Assembly (NCBI GenBank): GCA_018222765.1
Contig: JAAEZT010000006.1
Location: 1 to 57,910, forward strand
Length of the DNA stretch: 57,910 nucleotides
Direction of reading: 5' to 3'
DNA from: a bacterium
GTDB taxonomy: Bacteria > Verrucomicrobiota > Verrucomicrobiia > Verrucomicrobiales > Akkermansiaceae
The notes beneath the pieces were generated by a model that did no database searches, had not been told where the DNA came from, and saw only the letters and a program-made list of their open reading frames with translations. Both the position numbers and the translations under genes were made by a program. Positions 44,895 to 46,819 of the stretch are shown here, in pieces (positions within the stretch are counted from its first letter, which is position 1; the number at the start of each line of letters is the position of its first letter).

Positions 44895-46058
44895 TTACTG
44901 AAGCCGTTCTTCCGCGAGGAGAATGACATCGAGAGCGTAGCGGTTTTGCGCATTTTGCACTGTTCCTAACAGGTCCCGGGCCTCCGCCGCGATTTGGGAA
45001 AAGTCACCGTCCTCGGTTCGACCATAACGGGCAAATCTTGCCAGCGTCAGAGCAACCCTAAAATCATCCGACAGTTCTTCACCCTCACGAACAACTGCAT
45101 CCAAAGGCAACATGCCGCCTCGGGCGGTTTCCGTGCCTGTGTCTAGTTCGAGGTCGATCCGACCAAGCTTCCCTTCGAACCCGGTGAGCTTGACCTCATA
45201 AAAATACGATTGATTGCCGAGCAGAACCCCTCCGTCACCTTTGGGGTTTTCTGGAGTATACGATTCGCCGACCAAACGCACCGACTCGACTCTCTCAGGG
45301 TCGAAGTTAATTTGCGCGCTCACATTTTCATGTGGATTATCTCCTCCCTGGAGATTCACAAGCAACAGCGCCTTTTGATGATCCCAGGGGCAAAGCCCTA
45401 ACTCGCTGGAAACACCCACCGGCCCAACTTGCACCTGCGGTTTGGATTCGGCTTGGAGAATGTTGACCCAATTATCGACCCGAAAGTAATCTGTTCCCGG
45501 CAATTTCCCGGATTCGATCAATACTCGCTCGACCAAAGAGGGATCCGCAATCTGAAGCGAGAGCGGAAGCCTCAACGAAAGGTCCTGAACATTCCTTACC
45601 ACGTCGGTAGAAAATAGAGAAAGCAATGGGAGATCAGCGGCAGCGAGCTCGACTTCCCCGTCACCCTGGCCTTGCCCAGTGACGCCCACTCCGCTCGAGA
45701 AGGGAGGATCAACCCCCAATTTCGAGAGGCCCATAAATCCCACCGCGACCACGGCAGCCACTCCAGCTATCGCCATCAGCGACTGACGACGGGCCCGCTT
45801 TTTATGGTCACTCACAAGCACGGCTGTATCGGGACGACGCCCAGACTTGAAAATTGCTTTCCGGCGCTTTTCTCCGAGCGTGAACTGATCTGCGCCAAGA
45901 GTGCCGGAGAGAAGGGCTGCCATTTCTGACATCGCCTTACTCTCTTCAGCTAGCGCAAGATTGTCCTCCAACGCCATTGCCACCCGGGCGTTGTCGAATT
46001 CACACAACTCATCGAGAATGTATGCCGTCATCTTGGGATCTTCCGGAGTGAGCTTCAT
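44895..46058 (-). CDS. YfbK-like protein lacking the VWA domain; probable anti-sigma
   Basis: A 387-residue protein. The N-terminus (LTPEDPKMTAYILDEL) resembles anti-sigma-like N-terminal regions of YfbK proteins. A membrane helix is at about residues 93-112. Residues about 142-238 match the VWFA N-terminal domain (PF12450: FSTDV, YFRVDNWVN, SSELGLCPWDHQKALLLVNLQG). In YfbK a VWA domain follows; here the sequence passes at once into DUF3520 (PF12034: VSAQINFDPERVESVRLVG and the tail FRVALTLARFARYGR). So the MIDAS-bearing domain is missing at about residue 240. It lies four bases downstream of an ECF sigma factor and likely acts as its anti-sigma or sensor. Confidence 0.8.
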   Translation of the reverse strand: MKLTPEDPKMTAYILDELCEFDNARVAMALEDNLALAEESKAMSEMAALLSGTLGADQFTLGEKRRKAIFKSGRRPDTAVLVSDHKKRARRQSLMAIAGVAAVVAVGFMGLSKLGVDPPFSSGVGVTGQGQGDGEVELAAADLPLLSLFSTDVVRNVQDLSLRLPLSLQIADPSLVERVLIESGKLPGTDYFRVDNWVNILQAESKPQVQVGPVGVSSELGLCPWDHQKALLLVNLQGGDNPHENVSAQINFDPERVESVRLVGESYTPENPKGDGGVLLGNQSYFYEVKLTGFEGKLGRIDLELDTGTETARGGMLPLDAVVREGEELSDDFRVALTLARFARYGRTEDGDFSQIAAEARDLLGTVQNAQNRYALDVILLAEERLQ

Positions 46059-46062
46059 GGGA

Positions 46063-46617
46063 CTAGAGTGATTGGGGACTTAAATTTTGAATGAGATCTT
46101 CGGGGAGGATATTGCGAAGGCGCTTGAGACCGGCGTGGAGTAGGAAACCAACGTTTCCCATACTGAGACCCGTTACCTCACTGATTTCCTGATAGCTGAG
46201 CCCCTGCTCGAACTTTAAGAGAATGACCTCCCGCTGGTTTTCAGAAAGTCGCGACAAGGCTTCATGAACCTGCCCCACCCGCTCCTGAATATCAGCCCGC
46301 TCCGAAGGATCCCGACGCGTCGCCGGAACTTGATCCAATTCATCCTCTACAAGGCCGACGATACGTTTTTCCTTACGAAGGACATCAAGAGCACGATTTC
46401 GGCATACGGTGAAAAGCCAGGTTTTTAGACCATGCTGGATTTTCTCCGCATCCTGCTGATACAAACGCATAAAGGTATCTTGCACAACATCGCGGGCCTT
46501 CTCGACATCATGAAAAAAGCCAACGGCGTACCCGATCAAAGGCGACTCATACTCAGCGAGCGCCTCCCGGACAAACTTGTCCTGATCAGTGATCATATCT
46601 TCGCAACCGTCCTCCAT
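46063..46617 (-). CDS. ECF RNA polymerase sigma factor
   Basis: A 184-residue sigma-70 ECF factor. Region 2 (about residues 15-85) has SPLIGYAVGFFHDVEKARDVVQDTFMRLY and TWLFTVCRNRALDVLRKEKR. Region 4 (about 115-170) has LSRLSENQREVILLKFEQGLSYQEISEVTGLS and MGNVGFLLHAGLKRLR. The first ATG at 46617 gives MEDGCEDM; the Met at 46596 (MITDQDKF) is an alternative. It is followed four bases later by the YfbK-like gene, so the pair should be regulated together. Confidence 0.92.
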   Translation of the reverse strand: MEDGCEDMITDQDKFVREALAEYESPLIGYAVGFFHDVEKARDVVQDTFMRLYQQDAEKIQHGLKTWLFTVCRNRALDVLRKEKRIVGLVEDELDQVPATRRDPSERADIQERVGQVHEALSRLSENQREVILLKFEQGLSYQEISEVTGLSMGNVGFLLHAGLKRLRNILPEDLIQNLSPQSL

Positions 46618-46819
46618 GATTAAACAAATCTATGAGAGAAACGGACAATGAGCGAATTCTCTTAGAGAAATTCCCCCTTTTTTACTTCTCTTTGCATAAA
46701 ACTTTTGTCGCCCAATCCCAATAACTACGGTACTTTTGTGAATTTTGGTTGATTTTATTAACAAATCTTAAAAATTAAGTTGACCGTTATATTTATTTTT
46801 CCTAATCTCCGGCTGCGTT

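Follow-up and report, generated by a model that had tools for sequence, protein, structure and literature searches.

The window, by which we mean the whole 57,910-nucleotide stretch analysed here, carries on its minus strand a candidate membrane anti-sigma factor gene of the YfbK type that lacks a VWA domain, an ECF sigma factor gene directly upstream of it, and a candidate promoter in front of the sigma gene:

46640..46665, minus strand: candidate ECF-type promoter, CTAAGAGAATTCGCTCATTGTCCGTT, 22 nt from the start codon of the sigma gene that follows; the genus and VWA-bearing sister systems both keep it.
46063..46617, minus strand: ECF sigma factor of 184 aa, the partner gene, 4 bp upstream (Pfam Sigma70_r2 and r4_2, TIGR02937, sigma tree).
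44895..46058, minus strand, stop codon included: VWA-less YfbK-type membrane anti-sigma candidate of 387 aa (ORF, Pfam, family alignment, profile comparison).
45783..46058, minus strand: residues 1-92, anti-sigma-like N-terminal helices (DP.LTAY.LGEL), presumably cytoplasmic (NF052375 match and conservation in the family alignment).
45723..45779, minus strand: residues 94-112, single predicted transmembrane helix, N-in/C-out (hydropathy and charge).
45579..45722, minus strand: residues 113-160, variable periplasmic linker (alignment).
45345..45578, minus strand: residues 161-238, vWF_A N-terminal segment, PF12450-like (Pfam, profile comparison, segment spacing).
45324..45344, minus strand: residues 239-245, junction, the point at which relatives hold a VWA of about 170-175 residues (alignments with VWA-bearing relatives).
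44898..45323, minus strand: residues 246-387, YfbK_C-like strands and C-terminal helices (profile comparison; secondary structure from a low-confidence model).

The 387-codon ORF is free of internal stops and lies 4 bp from the end of the sigma ORF, which bears out the original prediction of an intact chain with a sigma factor gene four bases upstream. At the junction, which had been predicted near residue 240 and which we place at residues 238-246, the protein reads LLLVNLQG, then GDNPHEN, then VSAQINF. The topology is predicted from a single transmembrane window (hydrophobic window mean ≥1.6) and, by charge count, from basic residues being commoner on the N side of the helix, each in 30/30 members. 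YfbK_C (PF12034) is what we take to be the former DUF3520.

Taken singly, the window protein offers marginal Pfam support for this domain layout. vWF_A-N (PF12450) matches residues 178-232 at E 3e-4, with 21.2 bits against a cut-off of 25; YfbK_C matches residues 245-264 weakly (E 0.21); and no VWA family matches at E ≤ 1. Because this support is weak, tests were run at the level of the family. Among 30 family members, vWF_A-N is found by Pfam at E ≤ 0.01 in 15, YfbK_C at the same threshold in 10, and a VWA in none; in relatives such as L024, vWF_A-N rises above the Pfam cut-off. A profile of 23 VWA-less sequences, built from their C-terminal parts, aligns with a profile of 19 VWA-bearing sequences over 246 columns at E 1e-29 (hhalign), and the sole large gap in that alignment is the VWA domain. 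Moreover, the distance from the end of vWF_A-N to the start of YfbK_C is bimodal, at 2-27 or 190-196 residues. The exceptions are six VWA-less rows at 33-86 (L079, L098-L100, L102 and L113), in which the segments are poorly detected, and a VWA-bearing Streptomyces outgroup at 209; the count skipped four ORFs with one segment missing (L037, L078 and both L101 ORFs), and one further row set before the counts omitted L004, L005, L046, L057, L079, L098-L100 and the Streptomyces row. The outer segments are confirmed to be joined directly where relatives carry the VWA, and the original prediction of a missing domain with its MIDAS holds in the alignment to VWA-bearing YfbK-type proteins. A VWA relocated to an adjacent ORF was considered and rejected: among the neighbouring ORFs of the VWA-less loci examined (flanks mostly 1.5 kb; L183 and L184 outside the set), the VWA profile matched only in L101, which is not counted as VWA-less because its VWA and YfbK_C sit in two overlapping frames. 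Viral contigs searched for VWA-less or VWA-bearing relatives yielded none that was confirmed.

Three named assemblies carry the same gene, with full-length matches at 91-95% identity. The window protein is matched in 90 of 145 family genomes at E ≤ 0.001, many of the matches outside the genus being partial, and in 18 of the 21 genus genomes among those listed. Loci collected from the family hold 49 VWA-less ORFs, a count that includes the window gene, near-copies of it, and three loci in which YfbK_C is undetected (L078, L079 and L102). The architecture is accordingly not peculiar to the strain; as judged from these sequences, the VWA-less form is a family-wide lineage, with similar losses elsewhere in the class. 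Against three close orthologues, dN/dS is about 0.12 overall, 0.09-0.11 for residues 161-387, and highest within the gene in the TM-plus-linker part, ratios that indicate purifying selection on the chassis (residues 161-387). A recent deletion, a pseudogene or an assembly error is ruled out by the three other assemblies, the presence across the genus and the overall dN/dS, and the same full-length matches and ratio make a decaying remnant or one-strain assembly artefact, which the shortened architecture alone might suggest, vanishingly improbable. The same genome also has, on contig C35, a VWA-bearing paralogue of 1015 aa with a MIDAS motif and an ECF sigma of its own.

Two observations concern the edges of this distribution. 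Among the genomes listed for genus g3 of the family, whose genomes are small (20 in one listing), there was no match to vWF_A-N or to the VWA-less module, and the genus seems to be without the system. In family f2, three divergent, sigma-paired loci (L098, L099 and L100) have an ASD and a partial YfbK_C, with no VWA and no clear vWF_A-N; they are perhaps further VWA-less lineages.

The partner sigma has Sigma70_r2 and r4_2 matches above cut-off and a TIGR02937 match, and no region 3 family appears among the Pfam matches listed. The anti-sigma-like N-terminus described in the original prediction is recovered by the NCBIfam anti-sigma model NF052375, which matches residues 10-111 at E 1.5e-7, though with 31.7 bits against a cut-off of 100. 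A zf-HC2 match occurs in one of 30 family members (Pfam), and the Hx3Cx2C motif in none of the 30. A sigma gene adjoins 47 of the 49 family VWA-less ORFs, the two others being L019, which starts 16 bases from a contig end, and L114, where none was found; it also adjoins all seven of the class VWA-less ORFs. VWA-bearing relatives are placed in the same way, next to an ECF sigma in 30 of 31 ORFs of the window's family, in 46 of 58 class/phylum rows and in one of five outgroups, Rhizobium (L120). Since these relatives also adjoin ECF sigma genes, the pairing is older than the VWA loss, and the loss therefore did not create it; the proposal that losing the VWA turned the protein into a dedicated anti-sigma does not survive this comparison. 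The family ASD profile matches 43 of 58 VWA-bearing class/phylum rows but, among the 31 VWA-bearing paralogues found in the window's family, only one, and for that reason we do not claim the ASD as common to those paralogues.

The VWA-less protein is probably a membrane anti-sigma for the adjacent ECF sigma. That it might instead be an envelope protein transcribed along with the sigma, or might assist the sigma as a positive co-factor, is a reading to which the below-cut-off match to the curated anti-sigma model lends itself, and which we consider rather unlikely given the DP.LTAY.LGEL helices, the N-in topology and the place behind the sigma gene in 54/56 VWA-less ORFs.

Beyond the family, at least seven genomes have a sigma gene with a VWA-less gene next to it: G222, G252, G272, G567 (family f5), G375 (f14), G419 (f62) and G623 (f11). 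In all seven class VWA-less proteins both vWF_A-N and YfbK_C score above cut-off, and nothing matches a VWA; L098-L100 are excluded from these seven class losses. In L076 the junction, LKGRE-AGGTLVTIAKD, is a clean in-frame gap at the point where the VWA-bearing sister L133 holds a whole VWA. The junction has other edges in L074, L075, L097 and L182-L184, and some VWA-less junctions hold remnants resembling VWA edges. Being sisters, L074 and L097 are taken together as a single loss. In G567 (L182, 1-3367), a sigma gene and its VWA-less partner come 59 nt after a VWA-bearing YfbK-type gene whose start lies beyond the L182 stretch, possibly a duplication and a loss side by side.

On the sigma tree (71 rows, 23 of them VWA-less), the VWA label needs eight changes, and starred branches force six. 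None (0%) of 200 bootstrap sigma trees accommodates a single change, in a bootstrap that had not settled, and an AU test rejects the 23 VWA-less sigma rows as one clade (p 2.6e-9). Three VWA-bearing f24 rows that fall among the family VWA-less rows on a branch of length 1.95 are probably misplaced. The anti-sigma tree needs four changes, of which starred branches force only one. Because its long branches meet, the anti-sigma tree was rejected as a sole basis for repeated loss and the sigma tree was used instead. Both trees omit superseded or truncated loci and near-copies, leaving 17 VWA-less and six VWA-bearing family rows; the anti-sigma tree also keeps L036, the sigma tree drops L036, L120 and L155-L157, and L019 has no sigma row.

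The VWA could instead have been lost once, long ago, or have been absent from the ancestor, with later gains in which the scattered VWA-bearing forms were regained or transferred. Such a history would sit with the lone change forced on the anti-sigma tree and with that tree's unfixed root, and transfer or gene conversion between paralogues could have uncoupled the sigma and anti-sigma histories. We judge this unlikely, since junctions differ among VWA-less lineages, some with VWA-edge-like remnants, since the sigma tree and the AU test reject one clade, and since other phyla also have VWA-bearing forms (E. coli, Nostoc, Bacteroides, Rhizobium). We favor repeated loss: the sequences point to about seven losses as the likely number and at least three as the safe one.

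As described in the available excerpt of one report (PMC6509490), the vWA of the ArnB paralogue vWA2 (5A8J) is inserted in one eight-stranded beta-sandwich, with two strands before it and six after, followed by a four-helix bundle; the accessible part of another (PMC12852372) places E. coli YfbK, by its predicted structure, among proteins of ArnB architecture. Because the vWA of vWA2 interrupts a single beta-sandwich in that account (PMC6509490), vWF_A-N and YfbK_C are, by analogy, more likely one split domain than two. The earlier statement that two outer domains persist without the VWA thus stands for the segments and probably not for their number. If the ends of the insert lie close, the sandwich would stay whole after removal of the VWA.

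A first structure model was unusable (pLDDT 36). A second, of residues 163-387 (pLDDT 56.5, pTM 0.53), shows three strands ahead of the junction, one of them short, five after it, and four C-terminal helices, so that the fold prediction suggested at the outset gave strands on both sides of the junction and then four helices, at low confidence; the strand split is 3+5, versus 2+6 in 5A8J. Foldseek with the second model found nothing at E ≤ 0.001. Its top matches were mostly adaptin-ear and antibody-type sandwiches, and both 5A8J and 4FX5 were absent from the best 50 of 1439 rows. Searched against the sequences of solved structures, the VWA-less chassis had no match at E ≤ 10, and the full VWA-bearing family had four at E ≤ 1e-8, each of which covers the VWA part. 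The model is broadly consistent with an ArnB-type sandwich and helix bundle, but weak.

Residues conserved with and without the VWA (N199, E219, P224-W225, R261-L262, G264 and E288) fit a shared core. Other positions hardly vary in proteins that have the VWA and lose their conservation in those that lack it, both within the family and among the seven class proteins. They are the DVDTA of DVDTASY, which aligns with window residues 167-171, and most of D-F...D...DAGEIGAGH, which aligns with window residues 268-281. This pattern of invariance and decay suggests that they form a docking surface for the VWA.

In 14 genus loci, CTAAG-N17-CGTT stands upstream of the sigma gene within diverged surroundings. 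CGTT is a known ECF -10 element of canonical EcfG sigma factors, according to the accessible portion of PMC8103513. A relaxed form, YYAAKA-N14-17-CGT, precedes the sigma gene in 32 of 45 family VWA-less loci, in 6 of 10 class VWA-less loci (L098-L100 included) and in 35 of 49 VWA-bearing rows, nearly all from the wider class or phylum, counts that favor these three groups because the form was chosen after their upstream sequences had been viewed. The family's VWA-bearing paralogue system, not among the groups viewed, has it in none of 26, and shuffled sequence in about 1%. This count drops superseded loci, L004, L005 and upstream pieces shorter than 150 nt; its 49 VWA-bearing rows include L036 and Rhizobium, both misses. 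A stricter pattern derived from the genus only, CTAAG-N15-19-CGTY, is found in 26/47 family VWA-less, 2/10 class VWA-less, 15/54 VWA-bearing and 0/29 paralogue-system rows, against 0.6% in shuffles, with some genes counted twice via overlapping loci (e.g., L143 and L198). Because the same promoter occurs with and without the VWA, the sigma seems to have kept its specificity through the loss. A second conserved block, AT-rich, lies at 46753-46785 (minus strand), between the sigma gene and a divergent LysM-like gene: GGTCAACTT.ATTTTTAA.A..TGTTAATAAA. It is kept in most of the 14 genus loci and is perhaps a LysM promoter or operator.

Genome-wide, the strict site CTAAGA-N15-17-CGTT occurs nine times in G000, with no excess over chance (reversed control 34). 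The placement of strict sites, however, is not random. The start codon of an ORF of at least 120 aa lies 5-35 nt downstream of 19/58 sites in five genomes versus 1/30 control sites (Fisher p 0.001), where 58 of 64 sites (six of G031 left out) and 30 of 34 control sites, from four genomes (not G031), were examined, and where the 19 include four sigma genes, three YdjY orthologues and the near-identical pair L203/L220. A strict site precedes the gene for a secreted-looking YdjY-domain protein (NF040466, E 1e-36; L204, G000:C26:265884-266630) in 16 of 22 genus orthologues, and in 11 of 17 in genomes unused for its discovery, making this a candidate second operon of the sigma. The gene after it is presumably squalene-cyclase-like, as read from its ORF. 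Other ORFs behind sites encode an SHD1-like protein (below cut-off), HEAT- or TPR-like proteins and a PSCyt2/PSD1 protein. From these predicted products, the output of the regulon looks like the cell envelope. In one further case (L206, G000:C26:374495), the site precedes a 70-aa ORF whose G031 counterpart, L224, is intact at 481 aa and has weak matches of squalene-cyclase-like kind, a possible decay in G000.

Across the genus, VWA-like membrane proteins and proteins of about 500 aa (L233, L300-L319) have an N-terminal stretch of about 145 residues in common, and some of the VWA-like membrane proteins among them bear an ECF site. We weighed whether separate membrane VWA proteins under control of the sigma now provide the function of the VWA in trans. 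The case for it comes from L233, a membrane protein in G008 with a weak VWA match (VWA_3, E 4e-5) and an ECF site upstream, and from its homologues L301 (G079) and L303 (G057), each with a relaxed site close upstream. Of 13 homologous loci with an ORF, L301 and L303 are the only ones with a close site, the relaxed match of L310 being 130 nt away, and the homologues in G000 (L304, L309 and L316) have no site, which makes supply in trans very unlikely.

Domain anatomy, VWA absence, sigma pairing, recurrence and promoter conservation come from computation; how the protein binds the sigma, how it lies in the membrane in vivo, its fold, its signal, the way the sigma is released and the regulon are inferred in what follows. 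We think it probable that the protein is a membrane anti-sigma with a periplasmic ArnB-like chassis, a beta-sandwich plus helix bundle, whose inserted VWA has been repeatedly lost. As a single-pass inner-membrane protein, it would act on the ECF sigma encoded directly upstream, its N-terminal helices binding the sigma in the cytoplasm. The periplasmic vWF_A-N and YfbK_C would fold as one unit, the chassis, in a loop of which relatives carry the VWA. The VWA would have been lost in frame here and several times in the class, while the chassis, anchor, anti-sigma domain, sigma and, mostly, promoter stayed; because these remain, the chassis may relay an envelope signal, with the VWA as an accessory ligand-binding module. 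The sigma could be released by proteolysis or by a conformational change, by analogy, and once free would transcribe the operon that encodes it, together with envelope genes such as that for the secreted YdjY-domain protein.

A wider interpretation is one that we put forward only tentatively. The chassis may be the signal receptor of a phylum-wide anti-sigma class, and the integrin-like VWA a plug-in adhesion module whose repeated shedding re-tunes or rewires the input and leaves the output (sigma, promoter and envelope regulon) unchanged; the VWA-linked positions would then pass MIDAS occupancy to the chassis. The natural in-frame losses, one of them beside a VWA-bearing gene (L182), show which part is dispensable and point to residues that possibly belong to the VWA interface. 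The function of a VWA in bacterial signal transduction thereby becomes directly testable, with a readout supplied by the candidate promoter and the first candidate target genes.

An ECF sigma with a membrane anti-sigma is already known as a kind, and ECF-paired YfbK-type proteins are common in Verrucomicrobiota; the VWA-less variant is new to the literature searched. In the open-access literature we found no paper on the ECF/YfbK-type pair or on VWA-less forms, though absence there is no proof. The proposed split beta-sandwich followed by a four-helix bundle resembles ArnB/vWA2 (5A8J) and C. acidiphila 4FX5, as far as the available excerpts describe them (PMC6509490, PMC12852372), but the inserted vWA is absent from the window protein, which has no sequence match to them and no structural match among the best 50 of 1439. 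Like the Class I (ASDI) membrane anti-sigmas RskA and RseA, as presented in the accessible text of PMC7406223, it has an N-terminal helical ASD-like part without Hx3Cx2C, a single predicted transmembrane helix and a gene placed after the sigma gene; unlike those in the same text, its periplasmic part is the vWF_A-N/YfbK_C chassis, and its sigma binding is predicted. With the YfbK family (E. coli YfbK; PF12450, VWA and PF12034) it shares vWF_A-N and, as the profile comparison supports, a YfbK_C-like segment in the same order, and it differs in lacking the VWA and its MIDAS; in addition, the window gene has an ECF sigma neighbor and its product begins with anti-sigma-like helices, two features for which no equivalent was seen at E. 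coli yfbK. It is also like the ECF-paired VWA-bearing YfbK-type proteins of Verrucomicrobiota (L122, L133) and Rhizobium (L120), which have an ECF sigma upstream and the same segments, and which differ in having, between those segments, a VWA with its MIDAS.
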